From positions 1-45,609 of the IMG/VR virus record IMGVR_UViG_3300027969_002554: DNA of 45,609 bases. One strand, given 5' to 3'. Under the pieces are notes generated by a model. That model was not told the DNA's origin. It searched no databases and saw only the letters and a program-made list of their open reading frames with translations. Both the position numbers and the translations under genes were made by a program. This DNA comes from a virus. Positions 11,719-45,608 of this stretch are shown here, piece by piece; position 1 is the stretch's first letter; each line of letters opens with the position of its first letter.

Positions 11719-12948
11719 ATGAAAACTTTAGTTATTATGCCAGGAGGCTTTCATCCATTTCATGCCGGACACGCATCGTTATATCAAGACGCGGTAAAGG
11801 CATTTCCCGGCGCTGATGTATATGTAACCGCTAGCAATGACACTAGTGAAAGATCCTTCCCCTTCGCAATTAAAGAAAAACTAGCAAGAGTTGCAGGCGT
11901 ACCAGCCGGACATTTTGTTCAAGTTACCAGTCCTTTTAGTTCAGAAGAAATAACTAGTAGATATGATCCCGATGATACAATATTAATTTTTGTAAAGAGT
12001 GAGAAAAATTCTAAAAATGGTTCCGACCCTGAAGGTCCGTTCCCAGCAGAAGTTGATCCTGCTACGGGAAAATTACCTCTTGCTAAAAGAGGTAAAAGAA
12101 AAGGACTACCGGTAAGTGATACATTAAAGTATTATGCCGGTAATGAAAAAAATCTTCAACCTATGAGTCGTAATAGATATATCGCATATTTACCAACTGT
12201 ACCGTTTGGTCCTGGTATTAAGAGTGGAAGTGAGTTCCGTGCATTATGGGATAGATTTACTAAAGTTTTATTAGATCCAAAATCAACTCCCGAACAAAAA
12301 TCTAAAGCAACAGAACTTAAAAAAGAATTGGTTATGAACATGTATCCTGCAACTCAGGAGAATCCTAGATTAGCTGTCAATGTAGTTAAACTTATGGATA
12401 AAGGTATGAGCAATCCATTAACTAATAAATCAGATTTAGCAGAAGGATTATTAAATGAATTTGTTCCGCCAAGTAGCGGTGGGGGTGGCGAGAATGATAG
12501 AAATCGTAGAATAAGAAAACTATTAGAAATTGCTATACAAGTAGCAAAGCAAAAAAATGTTGATGAATTGGGTATGATACATGCTATGAATATGATAGCA
12601 GGTGATGACTTTTTTAGTGTAGCAGTTGAAGGTATACTACCAGATATAACAGATAAAGAATATATGTTCGTACTACAGAGTGCCTATAAAACAGTAAAGC
12701 AAGGTTTGGCGGAAGCAGAAAAAACAGCCAGAGTCTTTCACCCGCAATATGTAGATGTATACTTCTTAGATGGACCTAGAAGAACTCCTATTCTAGTTAA
12801 TCGTAAAGTACCATATAATTTAATTGATAGATATTTAGAAGTAGCTATTAAAAAATACAATCTACAACAGGGTCGTTTTGAGTTTAGAAACGCAGAAGAA
12901 GATCCAGTTAAGGTTACCGAAAGTGTGGATTATTTAGAAGAAAAATAA
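11719..12948 (+). CDS. Cytidylyltransferase-like nucleotidyltransferase with cleavable C-terminal modules
   Basis: 409 residues. The N-terminal domain begins MKTLVIMPGGFHPFHAGH, with the HxGH nucleotidyltransferase motif (H15, H18). This motif activates a nucleotide alpha-phosphate in enzymes such as NMN adenylyltransferase, PPAT and CTP transferases; the substrate here is unknown. After about residue 235 the protein becomes modular: DLAE (242) and GLLNE (247) followed by FVPPSSGGGG. A helical segment then follows, QGLAE (332), and a C-terminal domain ending near VTESVDYLEEK. These hydrophobic-x-Glu junctions match sites in neighbouring mosaic proteins and resemble T4 prohead-protease sites. 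I infer a packaged enzyme trimmed during head maturation. Confidence 0.75.
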   Translation: MKTLVIMPGGFHPFHAGHASLYQDAVKAFPGADVYVTASNDTSERSFPFAIKEKLARVAGVPAGHFVQVTSPFSSEEITSRYDPDDTILIFVKSEKNSKNGSDPEGPFPAEVDPATGKLPLAKRGKRKGLPVSDTLKYYAGNEKNLQPMSRNRYIAYLPTVPFGPGIKSGSEFRALWDRFTKVLLDPKSTPEQKSKATELKKELVMNMYPATQENPRLAVNVVKLMDKGMSNPLTNKSDLAEGLLNEFVPPSSGGGGENDRNRRIRKLLEIAIQVAKQKNVDELGMIHAMNMIAGDDFFSVAVEGILPDITDKEYMFVLQSAYKTVKQGLAEAEKTARVFHPQYVDVYFLDGPRRTPILVNRKVPYNLIDRYLEVAIKKYNLQQGRFEFRNAEEDPVKVTESVDYLEEK

Positions 12949-13000
12949 TTTGACCCCCTTGTTTTGATGTAAATAATACTATCTTAACAAGAGGATCAAA
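12949..13000 (+). promoter_or_regulatory. RBS-masking hairpin with late promoter in its loop
   Basis: TTTGACCCCCTTGTT (12949-12963) pairs with AACAAGAGGATCAAA (12986-13000): 13 of 15 positions, with two C-A mismatches and a 22-nt loop. The 3' arm holds the ribosome site AGAGGA and the A of the ATG. A late-like element TGTAAATA sits at 12968-12975 in the loop, with initiation expected near 12981, downstream of the 5' arm. A weak TTGACC-N18-TAATAC host-type promoter (12950-12979) would likewise start inside the loop. Read-through mRNA should be silenced; mRNA from either local promoter should not. Confidence 0.65.
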
Positions 13001-13944
13001 TGGCAACAAAGAAAACAACCGAATCAACAGCAACTGCTGTAAAAACAACTAAAGCAAACAAGTCAGAAAAAACAGTTCCTGTAGAAAAAGTACAAGAAAT
13101 TGCTGAACAGGCTGCGAAAGAACAAGCACAACAGGCTCCTGCAGCCGGTCAAGTTCAGGTTAACGTAGACTACCTAAAAACTACTAAAGTACATATCGCT
13201 ATGCCATGTTATGGTGGTATGCTAACAGAATCAACATTTATGTCTTTTATCAAGTGGGCTAATACAGCTCGTCAACTTGGTATTGATTGGACATTAGAAA
13301 CAATGGTTAACGAAAGTCTTATCAGTCGTGCCCGTAATACACTAACTGCTAAGTTCCTAGATATGCCAGACGCAACACATTTATTCTTTGTTGACGCTGA
13401 CATTGGCTGGGAGCCATGGCATCTACTAGTTCTATTGAACCGTGACGTTGATGTTATTGGTGGTTTGTACCCAATGAAGACAATGCCAATCAAATGGGTT
13501 GTTAATGGCTTTGAAGGTGCTGAAGAAGGACCAGATGGATTACAAGAAGTATCTAAAGCAGGTACAGGTTTCTTATTAATGAAGAAACATGTATTTGAGA
13601 AATTAAAATCTCATCCGGCGGTTAAGCAATATAAAAACGACATTGGATTAGATCCAAAGTATGACCAACACTTAAAGACCTACTTTGATACAGCAGTTCG
13701 TCAAAATCGTTACTACAGCGAAGACTGGACATTCTGTGAAAACTGGCGTGATATTGGTGGTAAGATTTGGATGGACAAACGTGTGTTGCTACGTCACTCT
13801 GGATCATATGTATTCTGTCAGGAAAATCAAGAACACTTAATGAAAACAATTGGACCTATGTTTATACAAGAACAGCAAGAAAAATTTGGAATTAAGTTCA
13901 CCGATAAAGACGGTAACGAAATAAAGAAAATAACCCCTGCATAA
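13000..13944 (+). CDS. GT-A-fold glycosyltransferase
   Basis: 314 residues. The first 50 residues are a Lys/Thr/Ala/Gln-rich disordered tail. The GT-A core begins with VHIAMPCYGG and has the metal/nucleotide motif HLFFVDADIGW with DxD at D132-D134. It continues through IGGLYPMKTMP and TGFLLMKK to SEDWTFCENWRDIGG, typical of GT2-like enzymes whose acidic SEDW acts near the active site. The acceptor may be DNA base, virion protein or cell-surface glycan. It is expressed from its own late promoter with a hairpin-controlled ribosome site and is closed by a strong terminator. Confidence 0.75.
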   Translation: MATKKTTESTATAVKTTKANKSEKTVPVEKVQEIAEQAAKEQAQQAPAAGQVQVNVDYLKTTKVHIAMPCYGGMLTESTFMSFIKWANTARQLGIDWTLETMVNESLISRARNTLTAKFLDMPDATHLFFVDADIGWEPWHLLVLLNRDVDVIGGLYPMKTMPIKWVVNGFEGAEEGPDGLQEVSKAGTGFLLMKKHVFEKLKSHPAVKQYKNDIGLDPKYDQHLKTYFDTAVRQNRYYSEDWTFCENWRDIGGKIWMDKRVLLRHSGSYVFCQENQEHLMKTIGPMFIQEQQEKFGIKFTDKDGNEIKKITPA

Positions 13945-13974
13945 TAAAGCCCCGAAAGGGGCTTTATTCTTTTT
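13943..13974 (+). terminator. Strong intrinsic terminator
   Basis: Perfect 11-bp stem AATAAAGCCCC / GGGGCTTTATT with a GAAA tetraloop, followed by CTTTTT. It overlaps the stop codon of the glycosyltransferase gene and lies two bases before the next late promoter. Confidence 0.92.
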
Positions 13975-13975
13975 A

Positions 13976-13983
13976 GATAAATA
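13976..13983 (+). promoter_or_regulatory. T4-type late promoter GATAAATA
   Basis: GATAAATA starts two bases after the terminator's T-run and ends 4 nt before the ATG at 13988. Either the mRNA is leaderless or the in-frame ATG at 14018 is the real start. Confidence 0.6.
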
Positions 13984-13987
13984 CTCT

Positions 13988-15616
13988 ATGGACTTAAAAG
14001 AATTACATTCATTCAAAATGTCAGATGCAGTGACATTTCACGATAACCTCAATCCTAAACTGTTTCGTGGACAACATCTATGGCCTGAAGTAGAACTACA
14101 ACTAAAAACAATAGCACAAGACTTTCTACAAGAGATGGGTATACATGATTTGGATGTACGTGATATCACTATATCCGGATCTAACGCAGCCTACAGTTAT
14201 ACAGACCATAGTGATTTAGATTTACATATCTTAGTCAATATGAAGGATTTGCCAGATGATGATATTTACCATGAATTCTTCAAAGCTAAAAAAGATTTAT
14301 ACAATGATTCACATGATATTACTATTAATAGAATTCCGGTAGAATTATACATACAAGATGCGGCAGAACCTGTCACTAGTTTAGGTGAATATAGTGTTAA
14401 AGATAATAAATGGTTGCGTATGCCTGCAAAACGTAGAGCAAACTTTGACCAAACAGCTACTAAATCAAAATATATAAAACTATTAGACATTATTGATACA
14501 ACATTACAATCTAATAAGATAGGCAAAGTCAATAAAATATTGAAGAAGATTAAACAATATCGTCAAGCTGGATTAGATAAAGGTGGTGAGTTTAGCCCTG
14601 AAAATCTAGCATATAAAGCATTACGTAGCCGTGGATATATTACAAAACTTTATGATTTAAGAGATAGGTTACATAGCAAACATTTAAGTCTGAATGGAAT
14701 GTATTCTAATGTTAGTGAAAGTTTTGATAAACCGTATAAACTACTCAGATGGGAAAAGGGTGACTTTGGTGATGTAGACGCAATAGCACGATTAGATGAC
14801 GGAACTTTTCTAAGTATCATGTTCAAGAAGGGATACAGTAAAGATACAAAAGAGGAAACATGGAGTGTTGTGTTTTGGAGAAACAATAGTCAAGAAGTCA
14901 CGGGAGAAGGTGATTCTCAACGAGTATTTGCCACTGTGTTAAATGCTATACAAACATTTATTGAAAAGTATACGCCCAATAAAATAATCTTTGCGGCAAA
15001 TAAAGTAGATGACACTGGACACGACACACAAAGCAGAGCTAATCTATATGACAAATTAGTTCAGCGTTATGCCAAGTCTTGGGGATTTAAATCATTTAGA
15101 GCAGATAATGGCAATAAAGTTATCTACGAATTGAGTAGGATAAAGAAAGATGTAGCAGAAGAATCGTTTGATGGCATAGAAATCTCTTTAGAAAAAGAAA
15201 ATGATGAGATTATGGTGACAGCTATGGCAAATGGTAAAGAGTTAGGTCAAGTATTATTTGTAGAAGAAAATGGATATTTGTTACCACAAGATTTAGAAGT
15301 AGATGAACGTTACCGTGGTCAGGGTATTGCCTCTACTATGTATAACTATGTAAAAAGTCAAGGATATAAAATACGCCGTAGTGGTCAACAAACAGATTCA
15401 GGCGCCGGATTCTGGAGCAAACATCGCCCTGATCAAAATGTCTGGGAAGCATCAGGCTATATTCCTAGTGAAAAAGAGAAAAATAAACCACAATTTAGTA
15501 CAGCATTAACATCAGATGTTAAGCCGGACAGTATCAAAAAGAACGCAAAAGCATTCTATTGGAATACTAGTAGAGCAGGTATTCCACCAACAGCAAAGCC
15601 ATCAGGCAAAATCTAA
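13988..15616 (+). CDS. Nucleotidyltransferase-GNAT acetyltransferase fusion with inter-domain cut-like sites
   Basis: 542 residues in three parts. The N-terminal part (about 1-240) has a Pol-beta-type nucleotidyltransferase signature: GSNAAY with S65, then SDLDLHI with D76 and D78. The middle part (about 245-390) begins after NVSE (E244) and is not recognised (GDVDAIARLDDGTFLSIMF and a C-terminal FRADNGNKVIYEL). The third part begins after DVAE (E391). It is GNAT-like, with the acetyl-CoA motif RYRGQGIASTMY at about 441-452 and a downstream W-rich end. Both junctions are hydrophobic-x-Glu followed by (E)SFD, so the same linker type separates all domains. I infer a cargo polyprotein. The ATG at 14018 is an alternative start. 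Confidence 0.7.
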   Translation: MDLKELHSFKMSDAVTFHDNLNPKLFRGQHLWPEVELQLKTIAQDFLQEMGIHDLDVRDITISGSNAAYSYTDHSDLDLHILVNMKDLPDDDIYHEFFKAKKDLYNDSHDITINRIPVELYIQDAAEPVTSLGEYSVKDNKWLRMPAKRRANFDQTATKSKYIKLLDIIDTTLQSNKIGKVNKILKKIKQYRQAGLDKGGEFSPENLAYKALRSRGYITKLYDLRDRLHSKHLSLNGMYSNVSESFDKPYKLLRWEKGDFGDVDAIARLDDGTFLSIMFKKGYSKDTKEETWSVVFWRNNSQEVTGEGDSQRVFATVLNAIQTFIEKYTPNKIIFAANKVDDTGHDTQSRANLYDKLVQRYAKSWGFKSFRADNGNKVIYELSRIKKDVAEESFDGIEISLEKENDEIMVTAMANGKELGQVLFVEENGYLLPQDLEVDERYRGQGIASTMYNYVKSQGYKIRRSGQQTDSGAGFWSKHRPDQNVWEASGYIPSEKEKNKPQFSTALTSDVKPDSIKKNAKAFYWNTSRAGIPPTAKPSGKI

Positions 15617-15640
15617 TAAGTTTCCATATTATGGTATTTT

Positions 15641-15648
15641 GATAAATA
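15641..15648 (+). promoter_or_regulatory. T4-type late promoter GATAAATA in a small hairpin
   Basis: GATAAATA is 23 nt before the ATG at 15672. It forms part of the perfect inverted repeat GTATTT-TGAT-AAATAC (15634-15649). Initiation near 15654 leaves a short leader with GGAAA before the start. Confidence 0.55.
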
Positions 15649-15671
15649 CACTATTAGTATGGAAATCCGTT

Positions 15672-17246
15672 ATGAAAATCAAACAAATCACTGAAAATAC
15701 AACAGCAGGGTCAATAGCTACAGTAGAAACCTCATTAGGTGGTACACAAAGTAGAGGAAATCCTAGCATATATGGCGGAAAGAAAGTAGGAACTCTATTC
15801 AAGGGTAAAAAGACTAAAGCCCCATATGCCAATAGCATCAATGAAAGTGCTGAACTAAGTGAAGCACAACTAGAAGAAGATGATGTTATTGTTGTTCCTG
15901 GACAAGGTCGTAGTCGTAAAAATGGATTTGTCCCACATGGACAAAGTCGTGTAGACCATGAAGTTGAAATGGCACGTAGTGATTTATTCAGTGCCGCAAA
16001 GAATGCTCAACAAGTTTATTCAATGATTAAAGATATTAGTGAAGATGAGGGTCTTGATGGTTGGGTACAAGAAAAGATTATCAAAGCTAATGACTATCTA
16101 AACACTATACGTGAATACTTAGAAGGTAAACAAGTTCAAGGTGTAACAGAAAACAATCAAAGAGGTGATTCACTTGTTACTGACGCATTAAAAATAATGC
16201 GTGGTTCAGATTATCAAATGGATCCTGTAAGAGCAATAAAGACTGTGCTTGGGGAAAGAGAATACAATAGCCGTCGTGGTTTTTATAATTTCTATGTAAA
16301 ACAACTAAGGGATATGTATGATCAGGAAGGTCTAGCGGAAGGTTCCAGAAACGCATATTTGAAACATAACAATTTAGTTGATATAGAAAAACCACTGGCT
16401 GGACTAAAAAGTGAGTTTGAGAAATTTTTACAAACGCATGACCCTAAAGAAAAACAAAAATACCAACAAGGTATAAAACAACGAATCAAATCAGAACCAA
16501 TGTTAGGACCAAAAGGCGTATTACCAGAGCAAGGTGTGGCGAAAGGCTATCAGTTAGATGAAGGTGCCGTTGAAACAATTACGGCATTAGTCAAGAAGAT
16601 CCCTGGCATTGGCAAATATTATCAAATGGCTCAACAATACAAGCCACAACTGATTCAAATTCTAAAAACTAGTAAATCCGGTAAAGAAGTTAAACAAAAA
16701 ATGGAACAGTTGGCAGCAAGTCAGTCTGTACCGGTCGCTGAATCAGGTATGATGAAACAATTAGGTGGTTTGGCAGTTGGTGGTGGAAGTATTTTATCTA
16801 CAATGTGGATGAATGCTATGGGAATGATTGATGGTGTGCTAGCACATGCGGCAGCAGGTGAGGTCGGTGGTGCAGTAGCATCCGGTAGTATCTTAGGATT
16901 AATTCCTGTAACACTAATGTTGTTTGCGGCAATGTTATTGTTCAAAGGATCACAACAAAGCAGTAATGAAAAAGCACAGGCATTTCAAGCACAACGTGGT
17001 CAGCAAGGTATGGCAGAAGGCAAACGTAATTTGAAATGTGTATGTAAGACACATGGTACTATGCAATGTCCAGTACATACACCAAAAGATATTGAAGTAA
17101 TAGAAGGTGCTAAAGTAGACCGTATGGTTAAGCATGTAGCACAATCAGAAAAGAAACTTGGTCATAGTAAAAAAGAAGCAGAGAACATTGCTTGGGCTAC
17201 CGCTAACAAGCGTGGCATGTTAGATAACAAGAATAAGAAAGCGTAA
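15672..17246 (+). CDS. Mosaic internal-protein polyprotein with a membrane module
   Basis: 524 residues. The start at 15672 (MKIKQITE) is chosen because the late promoter lies just upstream; the frame is open further 5' only inside the previous gene. Hydrophobic-x-Glu junctions occur at QITE (8), QGVTE (160), EGLAE (223), PVAE (357), QGMAE (449) and VIE (478). QGVAK (291) looks like a decayed site. Modules differ sharply: a Gly/Lys-rich piece (GGKKVGTLFKGKKTKAP), a helical piece (GWVQEKIIKANDYLNTIREYL), and a segment at 358-449 with two hydrophobic helices (ILGLIPVTLMLFAAMLLF). A Cys pair piece (KCVCKTHGTMQCP) and a C-terminal helical AENIAWATANKRG module complete it. No enzyme motif. I infer head-packaged cargo cut by the prohead protease. 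Confidence 0.65.
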   Translation: MKIKQITENTTAGSIATVETSLGGTQSRGNPSIYGGKKVGTLFKGKKTKAPYANSINESAELSEAQLEEDDVIVVPGQGRSRKNGFVPHGQSRVDHEVEMARSDLFSAAKNAQQVYSMIKDISEDEGLDGWVQEKIIKANDYLNTIREYLEGKQVQGVTENNQRGDSLVTDALKIMRGSDYQMDPVRAIKTVLGEREYNSRRGFYNFYVKQLRDMYDQEGLAEGSRNAYLKHNNLVDIEKPLAGLKSEFEKFLQTHDPKEKQKYQQGIKQRIKSEPMLGPKGVLPEQGVAKGYQLDEGAVETITALVKKIPGIGKYYQMAQQYKPQLIQILKTSKSGKEVKQKMEQLAASQSVPVAESGMMKQLGGLAVGGGSILSTMWMNAMGMIDGVLAHAAAGEVGGAVASGSILGLIPVTLMLFAAMLLFKGSQQSSNEKAQAFQAQRGQQGMAEGKRNLKCVCKTHGTMQCPVHTPKDIEVIEGAKVDRMVKHVAQSEKKLGHSKKEAENIAWATANKRGMLDNKNKKA

Positions 17247-17247
17247 T

Positions 17248-20200
17248 ATGAGCAATATTCTAAAAGGTATATTAAACGAATCAAATCCCTTCTATGGGCA
17301 CAATGATCCAGCCAGAGAATATGGAGCTGATGATCCACCAAGATTTAACAAATCACGTTCTAGTTATCGTTCACAAGAAGATGATGATGAGTATGATCCG
17401 TATGGTTTAATAAGACAAGAAAAAGATTTTGCTAAAGGTCGTGCTATGAAGGCAGCGGCAGAAAAAGCACAACGTGATAGTGACCATGATAGATTAGCAA
17501 CAGGTACAAATGAAGGTTTGGATGATCCATGGGGAGATCAAGGTAACTTTGCAGGTGATAAGCCAGTTAATCTAGGCAATGTATCTATGAAGAACATACA
17601 AACAGGTGACACTGTTAAGTATCTTGGACAATCATCACAAGTAGTTGCTATGAGTAAAGACCGCAAGTATTCTCGTATTAAAATTTCTAAAGGTATGGGT
17701 ACTGTTACCCAAGATGTATTAACAAGTGACTTACAACAATTAGGTCGTGGTACAGCAATAGAAGAAGATAATAATACTAGAATGAGAATGAATGATTACT
17801 ATGATTTGGCAGATGCTATTCAGGAAAAACTTAGAAATGCTATCAGAATGGGTAATAAAGAACTCATACAAAAATTAAACAAAGAACGTGATGAATTAGA
17901 TGCACGTGTTAAACAATATGGATTGATGCCTGAATCACAACTAGATGAACTAGATACAAAGTTGGGTTTATATAAAATAGCAGCCGGCAAGGATGCTACT
18001 GCCGCCGATAAAGCAGGTGATTACACACGTGGTCATAAACGTTTCAAAGGTATTATGAAAGCAACCGAGAAAGAGTTTGCTAATGACGCAAAAAAGAAAA
18101 AAGATGCCGACGAAAAGAAATCTGCTATCAGTCAAGGTATAAATGAATTTTCTCCGGGTGCTACTGGCCCTAAAGGTCCTAAAGATTATGGTCAACCAAA
18201 TAGCTCACGCTATATAGGTGGTAACAAGTTTGTAGTAGGTACTACTAACAACTATGTATTGACTGCAACAATAGACAAATGGGGATTAGAATGGGATGAG
18301 GATGATGAGATATGGTTCTTAGACAGTCCTGGTGCCGCTCATATTGCCGATGCTAGCGAAGGTGAAATAGAATTACCTCCTCCCCGTGAACAAAGAAATC
18401 AAATACATGATTTAGTAACTGATTATCTCAATGCTAGAAATTCTGCTGATTTACAAAAAGTAGCCGCATATTATGGTCACAGCAATGACGGTGAGATGGC
18501 AACAAATGAAGGTATAGAAGCACCTAGATTTAACAGCAAGCAAGAAGTTATTAATCACTTTGTTAAAAACGGTAAAAGTGCGGCAGCAGGTGCAGCGGCA
18601 TGGGAACGTGGTTATAGAGGTTCATCTAATAAACCAATAGAGTTAAAGAAACCACCACAAAGAAGTTACCACGATGAACTAGATGATAAGCGTTATTCAT
18701 CAATTGATGAAAATTTAGGTGATCAATTAAAATCTACATCATTTGAAGAATTAGTTAAAGCTAAATTAGCCATAGCGAGACAGATTGAAGCTGAAGCTGA
18801 AGCCTTTGAACGAGATTTGTATAAAAATAACACGGTACAAAAAGCACAACAAGGTTTACGTAGAGAATTTGAACCAACACCAGTAGCACAGCCCGGTGAA
18901 AAGCATTCTGTATTAAAAGATAGATTAAAATATTTAGATATTGCTAAACAAAAGTTTGAAGAAGTAAACAGATTAATTAATGCAATTAGAAAAAACTACC
19001 GACACTATGAAGTTGCAAACAAGATGGATAAACTTGATAAGAGTCTACTACCATACGTTGAAGTTGGACCAAAAGATAATTATAAATCTTTATTTGTAAA
19101 ATTAAGCAAAATTGAAACTGAGTTATCTGAACTGTATCCTACAGCAGCCGCTGCCGTAGCTAAGAAAAATAATCAAGGTGTAGCAGAAGGTTGGAGTCAA
19201 AAGTACAAGAGTAGTATCAACTGTAGTCATCCAAAAGGATTTTCACAAAAGGCACATTGTGCTGGTAAGAAGAAACACAATGAGAGTATTGACAATATTA
19301 TGGAGATGACTTGTCCTGATTGTGGTATGTGTGAAACTCATGTAGGCCATACTAATTTAGATGAAGCATGTTGGAAAGGTTATCACAAAGAAGGTATGAA
19401 AACCATGTTTGGAAAAGAATATCCAGACTGTAGAAAGAATAAAAAGAAAAATAAAACTAACAAAGAAGGTTTGGTGGAGGGCCCGGCGCTCTCTACGTCA
19501 ACACTTACCGGTGAAATTCCTAGATTAATGGGCATTCGAAAGAAAGAACAGAGAGACTTGATAGAAAAATATGCTCTCCACAACAGAGAGAAAGACTATT
19601 TTGAATTATTTGTAGAATTGTCAGGTAAACCTATGCCTGAAATTTATAATATGAATGATTCACATCAGTTAGCGTATGAACTTTATAACTTAGGATCTCA
19701 AATTGCTAGTGATTGGCGCAATATTAGTAACCCCGCATTCAGCCGTCGTGAATATCTCAACCAAATAATGAACGATTGGTATAATTTATTTAAAAAATCA
19801 ATTCAAAAATACAAGAGTATGAAGCAAGGTTTGGCGGAGGAACAATTAAATGAATTGGATTTTTTTGCTCCTGTAACAACATTTATAAAAATGACTGATG
19901 GTAGTTATATTCAAGCAGATTGGCGCAAAAGCCAGGGTAATCCAGGACTTAGTGATTCCGCATCGTTTGTTAATTTTAAGCCAGTTAATCCAAATGTAGC
20001 AAAACAACTTGGGCTAGATAATTATCAACGTAACAAATCTATCAGTAATTACAGAGACGGAACAATGGTCCCCGGAGGACCAATCCAAGGCAGTGGGCCT
20101 TTGGCTAATCGCGGATATGAAGTAGTAGACTATAATAAACCAGAAACTATGGAAGAACTTCCGCCTGAAATAAAATCTGAATTAATAAAGTGGGTACAAA

Positions 20201-20679
20201 AGCAAAATGTAGTGGAAGAAAGTTGCCCACATTGTAATGGCCCAATGTTTAGTGAAATGATAATGAATGAAAAGAAAGATGCTTGCTACTATAAAGTAAA
20301 GAGTCGTTACAAAGTATGGCCAAGTGCTTATGCCAGTGGTGCATTAGTTAAGTGTCGCAATAAAGGCGCAAGTAACTGGGGCAACGGTGGAAAGAAAAAT
20401 GAAAGTTCTATACTAGAAGGTATTAACCGAGCAGATGAAAGTTTACATGATTGGTTTAATAAAGAAAAATGGGTTCGTATGGATACTAAAGGAAAGATTA
20501 AAGGTCCGTGTGCTAGAGAACCAGGAGAAGGTAAACCAAAATGTTTGCCACAAAGTAAAGCACATAGTCTAGGTAAAAAGGGTCGTGCTAGCGCCGCTCA
20601 ACGTAAACGTAGAGAAGATCCTAATCCAGAGCGTAGTGGTAAAGCTATCAATGTTGATACAAAGAAAAATAAAGGCTAA
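17248..20679 (+). CDS. Giant mosaic internal-protein polyprotein
   Basis: 1143 residues, beginning MSNILKGILNE one base after the previous stop. Junctions of the same type lie at ILNE (11), QGINE-FSP (300), NEGIE (421), SIDE (488), QGVAE (647), EGLVE (744), QGLAE (864), QLNE (869), VVEE (990) and SILE (1057). Pieces include a charged helical segment (KELIQKLNKERDELDARVK) and a small acidic beta domain (NYVLTATIDKWGLEWDEDDEIW). A Cys/His piece with two CxxC (MTCPDCGMC, about 689-695) is followed by a WKGYHKEGMKTMFGKEYPDC element. Near the end are SRYKVWPSAYASGALVKCR and WVRMDTKGKIKGPC, a basic Cys-containing module resembling DUF5872 from memory. No catalytic centre is recognised. The layout implies processing into at least seven small proteins. 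Confidence 0.65.
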   Translation: MSNILKGILNESNPFYGHNDPAREYGADDPPRFNKSRSSYRSQEDDDEYDPYGLIRQEKDFAKGRAMKAAAEKAQRDSDHDRLATGTNEGLDDPWGDQGNFAGDKPVNLGNVSMKNIQTGDTVKYLGQSSQVVAMSKDRKYSRIKISKGMGTVTQDVLTSDLQQLGRGTAIEEDNNTRMRMNDYYDLADAIQEKLRNAIRMGNKELIQKLNKERDELDARVKQYGLMPESQLDELDTKLGLYKIAAGKDATAADKAGDYTRGHKRFKGIMKATEKEFANDAKKKKDADEKKSAISQGINEFSPGATGPKGPKDYGQPNSSRYIGGNKFVVGTTNNYVLTATIDKWGLEWDEDDEIWFLDSPGAAHIADASEGEIELPPPREQRNQIHDLVTDYLNARNSADLQKVAAYYGHSNDGEMATNEGIEAPRFNSKQEVINHFVKNGKSAAAGAAAWERGYRGSSNKPIELKKPPQRSYHDELDDKRYSSIDENLGDQLKSTSFEELVKAKLAIARQIEAEAEAFERDLYKNNTVQKAQQGLRREFEPTPVAQPGEKHSVLKDRLKYLDIAKQKFEEVNRLINAIRKNYRHYEVANKMDKLDKSLLPYVEVGPKDNYKSLFVKLSKIETELSELYPTAAAAVAKKNNQGVAEGWSQKYKSSINCSHPKGFSQKAHCAGKKKHNESIDNIMEMTCPDCGMCETHVGHTNLDEACWKGYHKEGMKTMFGKEYPDCRKNKKKNKTNKEGLVEGPALSTSTLTGEIPRLMGIRKKEQRDLIEKYALHNREKDYFELFVELSGKPMPEIYNMNDSHQLAYELYNLGSQIASDWRNISNPAFSRREYLNQIMNDWYNLFKKSIQKYKSMKQGLAEEQLNELDFFAPVTTFIKMTDGSYIQADWRKSQGNPGLSDSASFVNFKPVNPNVAKQLGLDNYQRNKSISNYRDGTMVPGGPIQGSGPLANRGYEVVDYNKPETMEELPPEIKSELIKWVQKQNVVEESCPHCNGPMFSEMIMNEKKDACYYKVKSRYKVWPSAYASGALVKCRNKGASNWGNGGKKNESSILEGINRADESLHDWFNKEKWVRMDTKGKIKGPCAREPGEGKPKCLPQSKAHSLGKKGRASAAQRKRREDPNPERSGKAINVDTKKNKG

Positions 20680-20681
20680 TA

Positions 20682-21122
20682 ATGTTATCAGATAATTTAA
20701 AAGTACTATTGGCTAGTACACAAAGTTTTGCTATCAAAACACAAAACTTTCATTGGAACGTGGAGGGAAGTAACTTCCCACAATATCACGATTTCTTTAA
20801 TACACTGTATGAAGATGTAAATGCTACTATTGATCCTATCGCTGAATATATCAGAATACTAGGTCAATATACTCCTGGCAGTTTGTCACGTTATACTGAA
20901 CTAAGTATTATACAAGACCAAACTAAAGTTCCAAGAGCAGAACTTATGTTTGTTGAGTTACTACAAAATTGTGAAACAATGTCAGAACTTGTTGTTGCAA
21001 TGTTTGATGAAGCTACAAATGAACGTCAGCAGGGTATTGCTAACTACATGGCTGAGTTACAAGACTTATACGGTAAGAAAGCATGGTTCATCCGTTCTAC
21101 ATTAAAAAGAGAACGTGAATGA
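20682..21122 (+). CDS. dps: Dps/ferritin-like protein
   Basis: 146 residues, the Dps length class without long tails. The signature NFHWNVEGSNFPQYHDFF followed by TIDPIAEYIRILG aligns with the Dps ferroxidase region: H24, H36, D51 and E55 are present. The Asp expected five residues after the second-His position minus one (the D of HExxD) is Asn40 here, so iron binding may be altered. Dps proteins bind iron or peroxide at subunit interfaces and can coat DNA. It lies inside the cargo-gene operon and overlaps the next gene by 4 nt, but carries no capsid-targeting peptide itself. Confidence 0.85.
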   Translation: MLSDNLKVLLASTQSFAIKTQNFHWNVEGSNFPQYHDFFNTLYEDVNATIDPIAEYIRILGQYTPGSLSRYTELSIIQDQTKVPRAELMFVELLQNCETMSELVVAMFDEATNERQQGIANYMAELQDLYGKKAWFIRSTLKRERE

Positions 21123-21751
21123 AAGCACAAGAGTTTATTATTGAAAATAACGATCAAGCCGCAGTAACTGCTCTGCAAAAAAAGCATGGATGGTCTACGG
21201 GTAGAACAGTTAATGGAGATCTCTATTTTACCTGGCAAGGACTCGAATATGTGTTTTATGGTGAGCGTATGCGTATCAACGTCCCAAACACTGACCGCTC
21301 TATATCAGTTGTGTGGGGCAAAAAACCTGATTGGCAAGGCCGAGGCAATGATGAAATCAGTTTTGCACAAGCAGTACAACGAAAAATTCTAAAATTTGAC
21401 TTGGCAATTTGGCAACAATTGGACCGTGGCCAAATTAATGATTCACAAGCCCTACAAAAATTCAAGGTAGAAAACGAACGTCAGGCTAGAGAAGCAATTG
21501 CACAGGGTGCGACAGAAAGCATCAATGAACAAGAAAATTCTAAAGTAGATTTGACACCTAATTATCCTAACTATGAAGTATTAATAGGAGAGTTTGTTGG
21601 CATAAGAAAAAATAGAGCAAGATTCTTAATTGTAGCATCTGAACTTAAGCCGGGTGTGCGTGAGACTGATAATATATTCAGAGCAAAAACAACTAATACT
21701 CCAATCAGTATTGAGATTAGTAAAGTGAAAAATAGAACAGTAGTAGGATAA
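21119..21751 (+). CDS. Protein with T4-like capsid-targeting peptide, unknown function
   Basis: 210 residues starting MKAQEFIIE|NNDQ, very close to the T4 internal-protein targeting peptide MKTYQEFIAE that gp21 removes after Glu. The first domain (10-135) includes KKHGWSTGRTVNGDLYFTWQ, QGLEYVFYGERMRIN and SVVWGKKPDW. A second site SINE (137) leads to a basic beta domain (IGEFVGIRKNRARFLIVASE). The function is not recognised. It overlaps the Dps-like gene by 4 nt and precedes a secreted nuclease by two bases, so it belongs to the same late operon. Confidence 0.65.
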   Translation: MKAQEFIIENNDQAAVTALQKKHGWSTGRTVNGDLYFTWQGLEYVFYGERMRINVPNTDRSISVVWGKKPDWQGRGNDEISFAQAVQRKILKFDLAIWQQLDRGQINDSQALQKFKVENERQAREAIAQGATESINEQENSKVDLTPNYPNYEVLIGEFVGIRKNRARFLIVASELKPGVRETDNIFRAKTTNTPISIEISKVKNRTVVG

Positions 21752-21753
21752 AC

Positions 21754-22194
21754 ATGAAAAAAATATTAATAGCAATAACACTAACATTAACAACTATGGT
21801 GGCATTTGCACAAAAACAAAAGCCAATGAATATATATGATTTCCCAATCACTAGAGTTATTGATGGAGATACTGTAGCATTTCAAGCAACATTCTTACCC
21901 CCGCCGTTAAAACAAGAACTAAGTATTCGTGTATTTGGTGTTGATACACCTGAAAAAGGTCATAGAGCGCAATGTCCAAGTGAAGATCAACGTGGTCAGG
22001 CTGCTACTGCATTTACAAAAAATGCTATCACTAAAGCACAGAAACGTCAAGTAGCTATTGCTGATTGGGATAAGTATGGTGGACGTGTATTGGGTGATAT
22101 ATTACTTGATGGACAAAGTTTAAGAATGATGTTAATACAGAATGGATTTGCAAGAGAATACTACGGAGAAGCTAAAACTTCTTGGTGTAACTAA
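21754..22194 (+). CDS. Secreted staphylococcal-nuclease-like thermonuclease
   Basis: 146 residues. Residues 1-19 are a classic Sec signal peptide: KK, then a hydrophobic run, ending VAFA before QKQ. The mature part is an SNase domain with VIDGDTV (D37, D39), IRVFGVDTPE (R59, D64, E67) and YGGRVLG (R111), which match the catalytic and calcium-binding residues of the family. Cys74 and Cys145 could form a disulfide in the periplasm. The enzyme would cut DNA or RNA outside the cytoplasm, sparing replicating phage DNA. Possible roles are nutrient scavenging, degrading competing phage DNA, or clearing DNA at lysis. Confidence 0.88.
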   Translation: MKKILIAITLTLTTMVAFAQKQKPMNIYDFPITRVIDGDTVAFQATFLPPPLKQELSIRVFGVDTPEKGHRAQCPSEDQRGQAATAFTKNAITKAQKRQVAIADWDKYGGRVLGDILLDGQSLRMMLIQNGFAREYYGEAKTSWCN

Positions 22195-22293
22195 CACACC
22201 TTAGGACCGGTACTAGTTACCGTGGTGTAGGCGGCTTCTGCCTTAAGTTATCCAATTCGCTACTGGACCTTATAAGTGAGCATAAATACTAAT
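22195..22293 (+). other. Structured non-coding spacer
   Basis: 99 nt between the nuclease stop and the ATG at 22294, with local GC higher than its surroundings. A bulged hairpin pairs ACACC (22196-22200) with GGTGT (22224-22228) and CGGTA (22208-22212) with TACCG (22218-22222). A second possible stem pairs TCCA (22251-22254) with TGGA. There is no U-tract, so it is not a simple terminator. I could not fold it as a tRNA. It may be a small RNA, a 3' stabilising structure or a processing site. Confidence 0.35.
22281..22288 (+). promoter_or_regulatory. T4-type late promoter CATAAATA
   Basis: CATAAATA ends 5 nt before the ATG at 22294, which has no ribosome binding site. This supports 22294, rather than the upstream in-frame GTG at 22276, as the start. 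Confidence 0.55.
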
Positions 22294-23247
22294 ATGAGAG
22301 CAATAGAACTATACGAATCAGCCGCAACTGACCTAGCTAAGAAACTTCCTAGCTTAGAGAAGCACGACTATAATACCATTGACAAGTTAATGAAAAAGAT
22401 AGCAAAGAAGCATCGTATAACCGGTGATGCATTACATGATTTATTTGTTAGAAAATATCACAAAACTCCAGACAGTTGGATTAAAGATAAACTAGATGAG
22501 GTTGGAGGACGACATTACAACCCGGATGGTACAACATATCGCGGATCCTATAATAAAATGCCAACATTAAATGATCCTAACGATATTTATAACAGGGCAG
22601 AAAGAGTACCATATAAAGATCCGGCTGGTGAGGAGCCTGCAACAGATGATAGTATTAAACAAATTATTCAAAATGGTTTAGACAGATTAACCGATGACCA
22701 ACGAAAAGTATTAATTTTAAGATTTTGGTATGACATGACATTACAACAGATTGGTGATAGGTTTGACTTGTCTAAAGATAGAATAAGACAAATTGAAGCT
22801 AAAGGATTAAGAAGATTACGAGATTCTGCTAGACATAAAGGATATGATCCCGAGTTATTAAAACCCTATATTACAGAATCTGAACAAGAAGATTTAAATA
22901 ATAATCCTATTGTAAAGAAGTTTCTTGCTTGGACAAGTAAGAAGTTAAATTTAGAAAATACTCCAAAGATAGAGTTTAGTTATGATAGTGATGAAGCACA
23001 AGAAGGACATCATACTGGTAGACATAATCCAGAAACAGGTGAAGTATGGGTTTATTGTGCTAATAGAAACTTGGTAGATATCTTACGTACTGTGTTCCAC
23101 GAATTAGTTCATGTACGTCAAGGCGAATTAAATATGATTAAGCCGGGTGACAGTTATCCAGGTAGTCCAATAGAAGCAGAAGCAGATGTAATGGCTGGAA
23201 AATATATTAAAATATTTGGAAAAGCACATCCGGAAATCTTTCAATAA
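22294..23247 (+). CDS. Sigma region-4-like DNA-binding protein fused to a zinc metalloprotease
   Basis: 317 residues. The N-terminus MRAIELYE|SAAT is a capsid-targeting-like peptide. A segment ITGDALHDLFVRKYHKTPDSW follows. Residues about 129-180 form a sigma70 region-4-like helix-turn-helix: LTDDQRKVLILRFW, then LQQIGDRFDLSKDRIRQIE and KGLRRLRD. A junction PYITE|SEQE (E195) separates a C-terminal metallopeptidase with FHELVH (H269, E270, H273) and EAEAD (about 294-298) supplying a third ligand, similar in style to IrrE/ImmA proteases. No sigma region 2 is present, so it is not a complete sigma factor. If cut at E8 and E195 it would yield separate injected DNA-binding and protease proteins. 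Confidence 0.8.
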   Translation: MRAIELYESAATDLAKKLPSLEKHDYNTIDKLMKKIAKKHRITGDALHDLFVRKYHKTPDSWIKDKLDEVGGRHYNPDGTTYRGSYNKMPTLNDPNDIYNRAERVPYKDPAGEEPATDDSIKQIIQNGLDRLTDDQRKVLILRFWYDMTLQQIGDRFDLSKDRIRQIEAKGLRRLRDSARHKGYDPELLKPYITESEQEDLNNNPIVKKFLAWTSKKLNLENTPKIEFSYDSDEAQEGHHTGRHNPETGEVWVYCANRNLVDILRTVFHELVHVRQGELNMIKPGDSYPGSPIEAEADVMAGKYIKIFGKAHPEIFQ

Positions 23248-23257
23248 AGAGTAACAT

Positions 23258-24235
23258 ATGTCAATAACAATTACGGGTGGTATTACAATGTCAGGTGGAT
23301 TGACAGTTGTACCCAAAATATTTTATTTAATAAAAGCTATTTTTATTTTCGGAAACAACAGTGGTACTGCATGTAAAATAACCAACCTAGTATCAGACAC
23401 CGGTGTAGTGGCTGCTGATATAACATATGCATCTGCTACTGCTAGATCATACCTTGCGGCAGCAGGTTATGGCAATGATAAAGCTATATTTGGATTTGGC
23501 GACCCCATCGCAAGCTCATATTCAGCAATAACTAACCTAGTATCAAATACCGGTGTGGTTTCTTCAGATCAGGTTGCGGTCACTGGTACTGGTAGAGATT
23601 ACCTTACAGCTGCAACTTATGGTGGTGATAAAGCTATATTTGGATATGGAAGTACTGGTACATCAACTGCTGTAACTAACCTAGTTTCAAATGCAGGTGT
23701 AGTTGCGACTGATACTACAGGTGTTGGTACTGCTAGATATGGTTTAGCAGCCGCAAGTTACGGTACTGATAAAGCTATATTTGGATTTGGATATAATAGT
23801 TCAACTTTTTACTCGCTAACTAACTTAGTAAGTAATACAGGTGTAGTTGCGACTGATACTGCTGGTGTTGGTACTGCTAGATTTGGAGTAGGAGCCGCAG
23901 GTTATGGCAATGATAAAGCTATATTTGGATTTGGACTTACTAGTGGTGGTCCTAGTGCGGTAACATCAATAACCAACTTAGTGTCAAATACAGGTGTGGT
24001 TGCTTCAGATCAGGCTGCGCTCACTGGTACTGATAGGACGCGCCTTGGCGCCGCAACGTATGGATCTGATAAAGCTATATTTGGATTTGGTGACATTAAC
24101 AATGGTTCACAAGGAACTATTGGGAGGGCAATGACCAACTTAGTATCAAATACCGGTGTGGTTGCCGCAGATCAGGCGACAATCACAGGCACTGCCAGAT
24201 TTGCTCTTGCGGCCGCATCATATTCATCAGCATAA
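23258..24235 (+). CDS. Six-repeat beta-propeller-like protein
   Basis: 325 residues built from six repeats of 47-52 residues. Each contains TNLVSNTGVV, a TAR/GTxR element, an AAxYGxDKAIFGFG strand pair and a variable Ser/Gly-rich loop. The chain starts with a lone KAIFIFG and ends with a repeat lacking its KAIF strand. The N-terminal strand could therefore close the last blade, as in velcro-closed propellers. Kelch-like and similar propellers occur in phage receptor-binding and decoration proteins; that role is inferred. The short hydrophobic N-terminus is part of the first blade rather than a signal peptide. It has no recognisable promoter of its own. Confidence 0.7.
   Translation: MSITITGGITMSGGLTVVPKIFYLIKAIFIFGNNSGTACKITNLVSDTGVVAADITYASATARSYLAAAGYGNDKAIFGFGDPIASSYSAITNLVSNTGVVSSDQVAVTGTGRDYLTAATYGGDKAIFGYGSTGTSTAVTNLVSNAGVVATDTTGVGTARYGLAAASYGTDKAIFGFGYNSSTFYSLTNLVSNTGVVATDTAGVGTARFGVGAAGYGNDKAIFGFGLTSGGPSAVTSITNLVSNTGVVASDQAALTGTDRTRLGAATYGSDKAIFGFGDINNGSQGTIGRAMTNLVSNTGVVAADQATITGTARFALAAASYSSA
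23477..24090 (+). repeat. Five near-identical DNA copies within the propeller gene
   Basis: GATAAAGCTATATTTGGAT begins at 23477, 23627, 23768, 23912 and 24068, with spacings of 150, 141, 144 and 156 bp. The five copies agree at DNA level including third codon positions, whereas the intervening loops differ. This indicates recent duplication or ongoing homogenisation by recombination. Confidence 0.85.
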
Positions 24236-41559: not shown

Positions 41560-42387
41560 ATGAAAAAAGTTTTAATTACAGGATGTTCAGGATATATCGG
41601 AAGTCATCTATCTAAGATGTTAGCTAATGATTATGAAGTTCATGGCTTAGATATTGATGAACCTCAAGCACCACTAAATGAATTTTATCGTTGTGATATC
41701 AATAGACCATTTGTTATTCCAAACGACATTGAATATGATAGTGTGATTCATTTAGCGGCATTAGTACGTGTAGGTGAAAGTGAACAAATACCTATCAAAT
41801 ACTATATCACTAATTTGAATGGGACAATGAATGTTATTAATAAGATAAAGACTAAAAACTTTATCTTTGCTAGTACAGGGGCGGCACAAGATTGTTCTAG
41901 TGCTTATGGTATCAGTAAACGTGCCGCCGAAGATGTTGTTAAAGAATATTGTACACAACACAAAAAACAAGATTATACTATCTTTAGATTCTATAACGTT
42001 ATAGGAAGTGAAGGTTATGAACCAACTAATCCTGATGGATTGATGTATAATCTAATAAAAGCCAGAACTACAAAAGAATTCACAATTTTTGGAGATGATT
42101 ACAATACAAGTGATGGAACATGTGTACGTGATTATGTTCATGTAAATGAAATATGTGACGCATTGAAACAATCAATTGAAAAGCCCAGTAATAGTATAGA
42201 ATGTTTAGGTCACGGTGTCGGAAAAACAGTAATTGATATTGTCAATATGTTTAAAGAAGTAAACAATATTGATTTTGAAGTTAAAGTGGGCCCAAGAAGA
42301 AAGGGTGACATTGAATCTAGTGTACTAGCTAATGTATCACCCTATATGCGTAATCTATATTATATGGAAGAGTTGTTGAAAGTTTAA
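41560..42387 (+). CDS. NAD-dependent sugar epimerase/dehydratase (GalE-like)
   Basis: 275 residues from ATG 41560. The Rossmann motif GCSGYIGSH (8-16) binds NAD. DSVIHLAALVRVGES and the catalytic Y116-x-x-x-K120 (AYGISK) are present, with RFYNVIG and CVRDYVHVNE typical of UDP-glucose 4-epimerases. It is shorter than GalE (about 338 aa), with a reduced substrate domain. It probably provides the sugar nucleotide for the neighbouring glycosyltransferases. Its end overlaps the convergent minus-strand gene by 4 nt. Confidence 0.85.
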   Translation: MKKVLITGCSGYIGSHLSKMLANDYEVHGLDIDEPQAPLNEFYRCDINRPFVIPNDIEYDSVIHLAALVRVGESEQIPIKYYITNLNGTMNVINKIKTKNFIFASTGAAQDCSSAYGISKRAAEDVVKEYCTQHKKQDYTIFRFYNVIGSEGYEPTNPDGLMYNLIKARTTKEFTIFGDDYNTSDGTCVRDYVHVNEICDALKQSIEKPSNSIECLGHGVGKTVIDIVNMFKEVNNIDFEVKVGPRRKGDIESSVLANVSPYMRNLYYMEELLKV

Positions 42388-43058
42388 GCTTGTGCTATTT
42401 GACTCATGGGTACACCTATTAGGTCTACTCCTCGTTTAATATGACTTACAGTTATATCTGTCTGTTGTTTAATGTAGTTGATACGCTCTTTATATCCAGG
42501 ATGTGTTTTATCACCTAAATCCTCAATTTTTTCTTTTTTAGTCATATAACCAAATGCTTTATTAGGATCATATCCGGCCTTGTATGCTAGTTTTGCTCCA
42601 AATGCATCCGCTAATAATTCATTTTTTCTATTTTGTGCGGTGGTCTGATTAGCATATCCATTGTGCTTATAAAATGCATGTCCCATTTCATGTGCAATAG
42701 TGTATGCTAATGCATCATCACTTAGATCCCAAAAAATACTTAGGTCTATTTTGATAACACCGTCTTTGTATGAACCCGCCGACCAAAGTTCTCCTACCTC
42801 ATATGATAGTTTACCTATCTGTTTAAGCTGTTCAGGTGTTAACATTGATCTAAGTTTATTATAAACCTGTCCAACACGTACATTTAATCGCTTCCAGCGT
42901 TTATCCCACATATCATTAGTTTTAGGGTCTTTCCAACTATCCCATCTTTGGAACTCTCCTGCTTGTGCGGCAGGCATTGCTGAGCCAATTGCGGCTGCAC
43001 CTGCACCTCTAAGTAAGTCACGGCGGGTTATTTCAGTAATAAACTCATTTGCTCTCAT
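42384..43058 (-). CDS. Metallopeptidase with capsid-targeting peptide followed by Tat-like signal
   Basis: 224 residues. The start MRANEFITE|ITRRDLLRG combines two signals. EFITE is near-identical in type to T4's EFIAE capsid-targeting peptide. It is followed at once by TRRDLLR and an Ala/Gly-rich hydrophobic stretch ending PAAQA, a twin-arginine export signal. The mature part is an M48-type zinc protease: AHEMGH (H123, E124, H127) and NELLAD with E147. After prohead cleavage at E9 the protein would carry a bare Tat signal. The likely story is injection with DNA and then export to the periplasm; the sequence shows the signals but not the path. Confidence 0.78.
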   Translation of the reverse strand: MRANEFITEITRRDLLRGAGAAAIGSAMPAAQAGEFQRWDSWKDPKTNDMWDKRWKRLNVRVGQVYNKLRSMLTPEQLKQIGKLSYEVGELWSAGSYKDGVIKIDLSIFWDLSDDALAYTIAHEMGHAFYKHNGYANQTTAQNRKNELLADAFGAKLAYKAGYDPNKAFGYMTKKEKIEDLGDKTHPGYKERINYIKQQTDITVSHIKRGVDLIGVPMSQIAQA

Positions 43059-43059
43059 G

Positions 43060-44688: not shown

Positions 44689-45608
44689 AATATTTCTTTT
44701 CTAGCCTTTGCTACCATTTGTTCGGCAAGCATTAATAATTCTTCCATCTGCTCAATAGATTCACAATTCCATCTACGTAAACTCTTGTTAATGTTACTAT
44801 TTGGATCTCTTGCTGTTTTAGCACTAGTTCTACTTTTCTTCATGCCCTTCATTCTAGCACAGAATGATTTACGGCGTTTAGCGGCTTTACTGCCCTTTTT
44901 AAGTTTGCTAGGTTTAGTAGTAACTGCTGTTTGAATCTTGCTACCGGGATGACTACGGCGATAGCTACTTACAGACTTTTTACTCATACCACCTACTCTT
45001 GGGTTGTTATGCTTTGACCAAGTCTCACCTTCATTCAATTCTAAATCGCTATGATTAAACGCAATGTAACTATCTCCGTTCTCATCACCTATTCTAATAA
45101 CAAATACTCCCGCATCTTCATCACCTGATTCATCTTGACCGATATCCCAACCCATTGAAGCTAATGTTTTTTGTGCTTTTGCCATTTGTTGTTCTGTTCC
45201 ATGCCACCATTGAGCAGCCAGTTGTTTTAGAATTTCTTCTTCATCTGGCTCATGGTCATCACCATTACTAGGAGCAAATTCATTTAATGATTCGTTTTGT
45301 TGCCCAAGTGGAATATTAGCAATATCAGCTACAGTAATATTAACTAAATTGGTTGTTCCATTTGCTATACGAGCAAAATGTCCTTGGTTGTGTAAATTCA
45401 TCATTGCGTAATACAGATAGTTTGGGTCAAGAACATCAGTTTTTACAACTTTAACTCCAATCCTTGAAGGATCAAATTCTTTAACAGGCTTACCTACAGT
45501 CTTATCACTACCTTTACGGATTAACCAAAAGTCAGCATCCTGCATATTGGTGGCAATTTTTGCTATGTCTTTCAGTCTGGTTCCTGCACTCTCAGATATA
45601 ATTTCAGT
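44685..45608 (-). CDS. Mosaic protein with HsdS-like segment, 5' end outside window
   Basis: The frame is open to the right edge, so the N-terminus is missing; the ATG at 45545 is internal. Junctions are IISE|SAG at the edge and SLNE|FAPSNG. The first piece (DADFWLIRKGS, then YLYYAMMNLHNQGHF and NGTTNLVNITVADIANIPL) resembles the end of a target-recognition domain in type I restriction specificity subunits. The middle piece has ILKQLAAQWWHGTEQQMAK and an acidic end. The C-terminal basic module has KRRKSFCARMKGMKK and INKSLRRWNC, a DUF6321-like element from memory. It overlaps the GP88-like gene by 4 nt. Confidence 0.6.
   Translation of the reverse strand, partial: TEIISESAGTRLKDIAKIATNMQDADFWLIRKGSDKTVGKPVKEFDPSRIGVKVVKTDVLDPNYLYYAMMNLHNQGHFARIANGTTNLVNITVADIANIPLGQQNESLNEFAPSNGDDHEPDEEEILKQLAAQWWHGTEQQMAKAQKTLASMGWDIGQDESGDEDAGVFVIRIGDENGDSYIAFNHSDLELNEGETWSKHNNPRVGGMSKKSVSSYRRSHPGSKIQTAVTTKPSKLKKGSKAAKRRKSFCARMKGMKKSRTSAKTARDPNSNINKSLRRWNCESIEQMEELLMLAEQMVAKARKEIL

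Follow-up and report, generated by a model that had tools for sequence, protein, structure and literature searches.

Mosaic phage genes whose cassettes meet at putative protease sites that coincide with a short DNA repeat

Results and discussion

Mosaic polyproteins in a virus genome fragment

Two large proteins, designated A (524 aa) and B (1143 aa), are probably polyprotein precursors of internal head proteins of the T4 kind, cut by the prohead protease gp21/S77 at joints that also serve to recombine their modules. As judged from sequence comparison, the modules are cassettes with edges at candidate cleavage sites, the most common joint is conserved as DNA, and the protease and the major capsid protein gp23 are encoded in long relatives. 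The window, i.e. the whole stretch of 45,609 nucleotides that was analysed, is the 45.6-kb IMG/VR virus record IMGVR_UViG_3300027969_002554 and probably represents a fragment of a virus genome. It encodes DNA polymerase B as well as ClpB-like and PhoH-like proteins that were recognised by sequence. No head genes were recognised within the 45.6 kb, so that the phage's own protease and capsid protein are not seen there. Both A and B exist as predicted in the first-pass annotation and belong to a run of mosaic genes at 11719-23247, and three further mosaic genes are located at the right edge of the window (42384-45608, minus strand). The coordinates of all features are listed in Table 1.

The proteins A and B and several of their neighbours are mosaics of pieces that end at [V/L/I/M]xE sites. 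The recurring junctions of the QG(L/V/M)AE type, previously noted by eye, proved to be real: the strict motif [QEK]G[VLMI][AT]E occurs three times in A, with 0.02 occurrences expected (none of 5000 shuffles reached three), and twice in B, with 0.03 expected from shuffles (p=0.0016). Across the related loci described below the count was 188 versus 2.3 in shuffles, for a set that had been selected for carrying the motif. The looser [LIVM]xE sites are only modestly enriched (15 versus 8.8 in A, 22 versus 15.5 in B); a single weak site therefore proves nothing, and since generic xxE sites are frequent by chance, it is uncertain which of them are cut. Matches in DNA polymerase B and ClpB follow the looser pattern only (GIAE, GLSE) and look like chance. 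The first-pass annotation was also accurate in placing sites at residues 242, 247 and 332 of the 409-aa protein and the junctions SLNE/FAPS and ELNE/G (slashes mark putative cuts) in the right-edge protein, and the differing composition of the pieces is apparent from the membrane module A 358-449 and the Cys-rich modules B 680-740 and B 990-1008. At residues 288-292 of A the joint reads QGVAK; its DNA, CAAGGTGTGGCGAAAG, is one base off the consensus, so that the site was probably lost.

Table 1. Features of the mosaic gene regions in the window
Feature	Position	Strand	Evidence or remark
409-aa cytidylyltransferase-like protein, modules joined at LAE, LNE, QGLAE	11719-12948	+	
Joint copy CAAGGTTTGGCGGAAG	12700-12715	+	
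Nucleotidyltransferase-like/GNAT mosaic (542 aa)	13988-15616	+	Homologue of S-CREM2 virion protein gp156 (36%)
Mosaic polyprotein A, 524 aa	15672-17246	+	Sites at 8, 58, 160, 223, 297, 357, 449, 478; modules common to other proteins
Putative capsid-targeting leader MKIKQITE of A, ends at I-x-E site	15672-15695	+	Sequence; T4 analogy (PMC9026906); similar leaders in ~40 homologues
NTTAGSIATV segment of A	15696-15725	+	Resembles gp23 mature N-terminus TTTAGNIATL of long relatives
A module 59-160, ends QGVTE	15846-16151	+	Module map
A module 161-223, ends EGLAE	16152-16340	+	18 contexts; site at left 16/18, right 17/18
Joint copy CAAGGTGTGGCGAAAG (QGVAK, Glu lost)	16530-16545	+	
A cassette 293-449, including hydrophobic membrane module 358-449	16548-17018	+	Several proteins; edges at sites: left 10/10, right 11/11
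Joint copy CAAGGTATGGCAGAAG (QGMAE)	17004-17019	+	
A C-terminal module 479-524	17106-17243	+	C-terminal in 27/34 contexts
Mosaic polyprotein B, 1143 aa	17248-20679	+	Sites at 11, 234, 300, 488, 647, 706, 744, 864, 869, 990, 1008, 1057
Putative leader MSNILKGILNE of B	17248-17280	+	MS[NS]ILKG..NE leaders recur in relatives
B module 235-300	17950-18147	+	46 contexts; internal, also directly behind N-terminal leaders (12)
B 489-647, ends QGVAE	18712-19188	+	Module map
Joint copy CAAGGTGTAGCAGAAG	19174-19189	+	
B 648-744, small Cys-rich modules	19189-19479	+	B 648-680 preceded by site in 54/55 contexts
B 745-864, ends QGLAE	19480-19839	+	No relative found in the loci compared
Joint copy CAAGGTTTGGCGGAGG	19825-19840	+	
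B 865-990 (EQLNE/LDFFAPV...)	19840-20217	+	Module map
B 1009-1057 (KKDACYYKVKSRYKVWPSAYASGALV)	20272-20418	+	53 contexts; site before module 52/52; homologue in S-CREM2 virion protein gp160
B 1058-1143, basic module	20419-20676	+	Homologue in S-CREM2 gp160, order different
Sigma-70 region 4 cassette (KDKLDE/...KPYITE/)	22501-22878	+	Exact 378-bp unit, absent in relatives; inside protein 22276-23247
M48-type metalloprotease, leader MRANEFITE then directly Tat signal	42384-43058	-	
Gp88-domain protein	43060-44688	-	Gp88 domain behind 14 different upstream modules, after site 14/14
Right-edge partial mosaic protein, DUF6321 module	44685-45608	-	

Exchange of cassettes among related loci

Two protein-level scans provided 146 related loci, in which the same pieces were found reordered, in other genes, behind N-terminal leaders or missing, with edges at sites. 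A 158-aa module (GYQLDEGA..ETITAL...QQG[VM]AE) of L072, L076 and L081 matches A, L019 and L118 have a 123-aa module in common, and L048 and L113 a 134-aa module. The module A 358-449 is followed by 11 different neighbours and flanked by sites on both sides in 11/11 cases. Domains in the mosaic proteins include GNAT, DUF6321, amidoligase, ParB and the Tat signal, among others. No relative of A was found in isolated phages, and no relative of B 745-864 in any locus compared; the latter is possibly a recently acquired cassette.

Pairwise comparison of loci whose flanking DNA is similar gave 102 indels, of which 89 have a length divisible by three and 80 are confined to a single ORF. The distinct in-frame indels number 51: the left edge coincides exactly with [AVLIMF]xE in 28 of them and the right edge in 27 (background 7.5% per edge), and about half of the edges are not exactly at a site. 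In 91 replacements, a site lies no more than 3 aa from the left edge in 58 and from the right edge in 52 (null 21%). When mosaic proteins are aligned locally with one another, 84 alignments begin at the initial residue of QGVAE or at the residue preceding it (about 8 expected), and 50 end exactly at its Glu (about 4 expected). The joint polarity is weak: in 37 distinct indel cassettes, searched for a 3'-only pattern, the G[VLMI]xE motif is present at the right edge in only 11, i.e. seven on the right only and four on both sides, with five on the left only and 21 on neither.

These data support the earlier proposal of cassette shuffling with the cut site as the joint, which withstood tests able to refute it, the cut itself being deduced indirectly. 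Most modules are, as predicted, found rearranged or as genes of their own with the motif at their borders, which is evident from the indels, the replacements and the module map. A pattern of conserved order with loss of the Glu, named beforehand as contrary evidence, was not seen; homologues change the order and keep the Glu, QGVAK being the one exception in the window. Cassettes in L007, L010, L043, L048 and L112 (YLWHGSR, NYLYHAT, VYHVTPTSNLDSIMKAGL) resemble, by eye, domains of the ADP-ribosyltransferase type, recalling T4 Alt.

The joint as a conserved DNA repeat

The first-pass annotation treated the joint as a cut site in the protein and overlooked its conservation as DNA. The QGVAE-type joint is a sharply bounded repeat of ~20 bp, AGCAAGGTGTGGCGGAAGGC, at whose ends the information content rises and falls abruptly; its sequence logo has no evident inverted repeat. 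Codon usage was determined from 127 non-redundant sites that had been found by protein-level searches without reference to DNA. In the joint, GTG specifies 84% of Val (background 12%), GCG 85% of Ala (6%), CAA 98% of Gln and GGT 91% of Gly (54%), and where a Gly follows the joint it is encoded by GGC in 76% of cases (22%). The combination GTGGCG encodes only 3.3% of other Val-Ala pairs, and the LNE and INE sites of the same proteins have background codons. A translational cause of the rare codons was set aside because of the synonymous drift at orthologous junctions and the absence of such a bias at LNE and INE sites.

A scan of viral contigs for the joint yielded at least 120 stretches. All 161 near copies (up to three mismatches, first loci) are in one frame inside ORFs, as are, in the same frame, all 153 exact copies among the matches listed, from 119 further contigs. 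Out-of-frame, antisense or intergenic copies were not encountered among these 161 near and at least 153 exact copies. S-CREM2, Bellamy, SynMITS9220M01 and LR756508 lack the joint. In 257 Gb of bacterial and archaeal genomes there were 26 exact matches, which are spread across unrelated taxa and were attributed to chance.

At orthologous junctions, synonymous sites gave values of 0.63 for the joint versus 0.52 for the module, 0.77 versus 0.65 and 0.90 versus 0.73, so that the joint drifts slightly slower. Purifying selection at the DNA level thus appears to be weak, and the consensus is presumably renewed by repeated copying along with the cassettes: the repeat stands with its rare codons intact beside unrelated modules, which calls for recurrent copying.

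A natural swap and its breakpoints

The loci L049 and L050 differ at one place, where a cassette of 80 aa in one corresponds to a cassette of 139 aa in the other; the flanking DNA has 99.3% identity on the left (607 bp) and 99.9% on the right (7659 bp). The identity on the left runs through the joint copy GCAAGGTGTGGCGGAAG and then ends. The right joint differs at two synonymous bases (CAAGGTGTGGCGGAAGGC versus CAAGGCGTGGCAGAAGGC), and after it both loci are identical for ~4.9 kb until the next difference. Since the right joint itself differs, the cassette arrived with its own 3' joint, and the exchanged unit consists of module plus 3' joint. DNA breakpoints elsewhere often have a placement ambiguity of up to 13 bp within site codons (TGAAGGT, AGGTGT, TGTGGCGGAAG), and in three comparisons hybrid joints combine VQGV from the left site with the last two residues (SE) from the right.

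Leaders, predicted cleavage and virion proteins

In T4, the protease gp21 cleaves L/I-x-E sites behind the Glu, and proteins are directed to the head by short N-terminal leaders (PMC9026906). The [V/L/I/M]xE sites are close to this specificity, with V/M at the first position wider than the L/I of T4. Both gp21, with an S77 domain over the Pfam cut-off, and gp23 are encoded in five of five long relatives (249-525 kb), and gp23 in seven of 12 further records. The gp23 leader of the long relatives ends ...KKQLLAE/SSAGTTTAGNIATL (QLLAE/S), the same site type as the joints. Mosaic proteins have leaders that likewise end in L/I-x-E (MKIKQITE, MSNILKGILNE, MRANEFITE, MKAQEFIIE), and 47/71 mosaic ORFs have a site among their first 16 aa, versus 243/797 others. 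Furthermore, A reads ...KQITE/NTTAGSIATV, which echoes the mature N-terminus of gp23; a pattern derived post hoc from this likeness matched 42 A-type N-termini or segments and five gp23 proteins among 5543 ORFs, with one match in shuffles. These features support cleavage at the sites indirectly.

Published mass spectrometry of the S-CREM2 virion detected gp160 with seven peptides and gp156 with six (PMC10665884). The former is homologous to modules of B and the latter to the 542-aa window protein; the proteins detected are thus relatives and not A or B themselves. Relatives of three B segments occur in gp160 in the sequence 1065-1141, 699-728 and 1005-1052, which differs from that in B, and gp160 carries the segment GFTGAAAPxGP of that cyanophage's own gp23 (ATGFTGAAAPEGPVAGYDP versus ADGFTGAAAPGGPNAGFDP). 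Mosaic head proteins repeat a capsid-protein segment near its cut site, the segment differing per lineage (15696-15725 in the window; 13343-14236 in L302).

Tat-like signals in mosaic proteins start two to four residues after a site in 15 of 15 cases (null 0.19 each for a site within 6 aa). Such signals, of the RRGFLxG type, follow putative sites in L010, L003, L012, L001, L267, L237, L082, L197, L131, L038, L264, L117 and L092 and directly in the minus-strand gene 42384-43058 of the window. Tat signals need a free N-terminus, and their placement adds to the indirect support for cleavage, as do the virion homologues of B modules and of a neighbour of B. The position of the signals also suggests that some released modules may be exported in the host.

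AlphaFold models of A and B are of low to medium confidence (means 62 and 55), and a PDB fold search with A gave no significant match. Most sites are in low-confidence stretches between predicted folded pieces, so that the possibility of motifs lying inside folded domains, formulated in advance as an objection, does not apply to them; it does apply to a few sites in helices, since A 160 and A 223 are pLDDT dips inside predicted helices and B 229/234 marks the start of a confident helix.

Proposed mechanism and alternative explanations

According to the proposed mechanism, the N-terminal leader, in A together with the copy of the capsid mature N-terminus, would carry the precursor into the prohead, where gp21/S77 would cut after Glu at [L/I/V/M]-x-E and liberate every module as a small protein of its own, which could be injected together with the DNA. 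Packaging and injection in the window phage and an effector role of the pieces are likewise proposed. The most common joint, QG(V/M/L)AE-G, would double as the ~20-bp DNA repeat that mediates in-frame exchange of modules, presumably by homologous or microhomologous recombination, and with module plus own 3' joint as the unit exchanged, gain, loss, swap and reordering would leave the ends of the neighbours clean. The packaging and processing so proposed are of the T4 kind. We lean towards the view that a single ~20-bp sequence serves both as the recombination joint for movement of cassettes within and between genes and as the protease site that separates their products, so that single ORFs would hold an open, integron-like array of proteins delivered from the head.

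The part of the DNA repeat is open to a different reading, in which breaks are random, survivors are those at protease sites, and the repeat merely reflects recent common origin and plays no part in recombination. The many edges at generic xxE sites without the repeat agree with this, as does the drift of synonymous joint sites almost like the module at orthologous junctions. The recurrent copying needed where the intact repeat flanks unrelated modules, the location of both edges of the L049/L050 swap in joint copies and the crossovers within the motif of hybrid joints argue against it, and we regard it as rather doubtful. A dedicated enzyme acting on the 20-bp joint, either a recombinase as in integrons or a homing endonuclease that drives exchange, is improbable: the sharp edges of the element and the unit of module plus 3' joint, like an integron cassette with attC, would fit, but many edges are without the joint, the latter has no evident inverted-repeat structure, and no such enzyme was noticed in linkage with mosaic genes in an unsystematic look. 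A GIY-YIG-like ORF (by eye; YKTTHTNGKYYIGRHS), a possible driver of exchange, is located just downstream of gp23 in L152 (2669-3649) and L153 (2649-3626).

Ordinary domain shuffling, with the motifs as flexible E-rich linkers that tolerate insertions and are not cut by a protease, is slightly less probable still. Exchange between domains is common in phages and the sites are mostly in low-confidence stretches, but this explanation leaves unaccounted for the one precise pentapeptide common to unrelated modules, the identity of the site type with that of the gp23 leader and the N-terminal leaders ending likewise, and the Tat signals 2-4 aa after sites, where a free N-terminus would be needed. 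Assembly artefacts, i.e. chimeric metagenome contigs caused by the repeated 20-mer, are hardly credible. All joint-bearing data are metagenomic and assemblers can err at repeats; identical arrangements were nevertheless recovered from four, three and two separate assemblies, which makes such an error unlikely, cassettes differ also at sites without the repeat, and B modules are ordered differently in S-CREM2, which is an isolate.

Comparison with known systems

The preferred reading, precursors of head proteins cut and recombined at the same joints, resembles the internal head proteins of T4 (IPI-III and Alt, cut by gp21) in the short leader ending in I/L-x-E, the presence of gp21 and gp23 in relatives and the variable cargo. 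The T4 cargo consists of single genes with terminal propeptides, whereas a single ORF here strings many modules together by internal sites. Head proteins of phiKZ and SPN3US are processed at multiple S/A-x-E sites (PMC10052503), likewise by a prohead protease of the gp21 line with several cuts per protein, which are putative in the mosaic proteins; the cuts there remove propeptides, and the available text of that source does not describe cassette exchange at the cut site. Polyvalent proteins are also multi-domain, mosaic and predicted to be packaged and injected (PMC5512222), and the mosaic proteins similarly combine disparate domains, but a common DNA-level joint is not described for polyvalent proteins in the available text, where processing is ascribed to their own metallopeptidase domain as a proposal (PMC5512222).

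Modular shuffling mediated by PeSLs acts between genes in T4-type phages (Arbiol 2010, Comeau 2014, cited in PMC4503421). The proposed role of the joint is alike in that a short repeated DNA motif at module borders promotes exchange. As described in that citing source, PeSLs consist of promoter/terminator stem-loops and shuffle entire genes, whereas the joint is in-frame coding DNA that spells a protease site; an intergenic position, as is typical of PeSLs, was found for none of the 161 near and at least 153 exact copies, all of which are in frame inside ORFs. Integron gene cassettes likewise move as module plus 3' recombination site, but no attC fold was seen in the joint, and the joints are within one ORF with the reading frame kept. 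The first-pass annotation knew of no family with this layout; open-licence papers contained no matching description of intragenic cassettes with a protease-site DNA joint, nor the string QGVAEG, although an earlier report elsewhere is possible.

If correct, the proposed mechanism would explain how head-delivered proteins are rapidly gained and traded without breaking their neighbours, as the joint restores both frame and cut site. It would link protein processing with recombination in one testable sequence, and the tag AGCAAGGTGTGGCGGAAGGC could be used to harvest many candidate injected proteins, most of them without a known domain, and would predict mature protein ends to the residue.

Two further genes near the mosaic genes deserve mention. 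The ORF at 21754-22194, located between mosaic genes, has a signal-peptide-like start and is thermonuclease-like by eye. The protein encoded at 23258-24235 has repeats of the type NLVSNTGVVA...KAIFGFG, and a similar repeat protein begins near gp23 in L152 (3708-4016).
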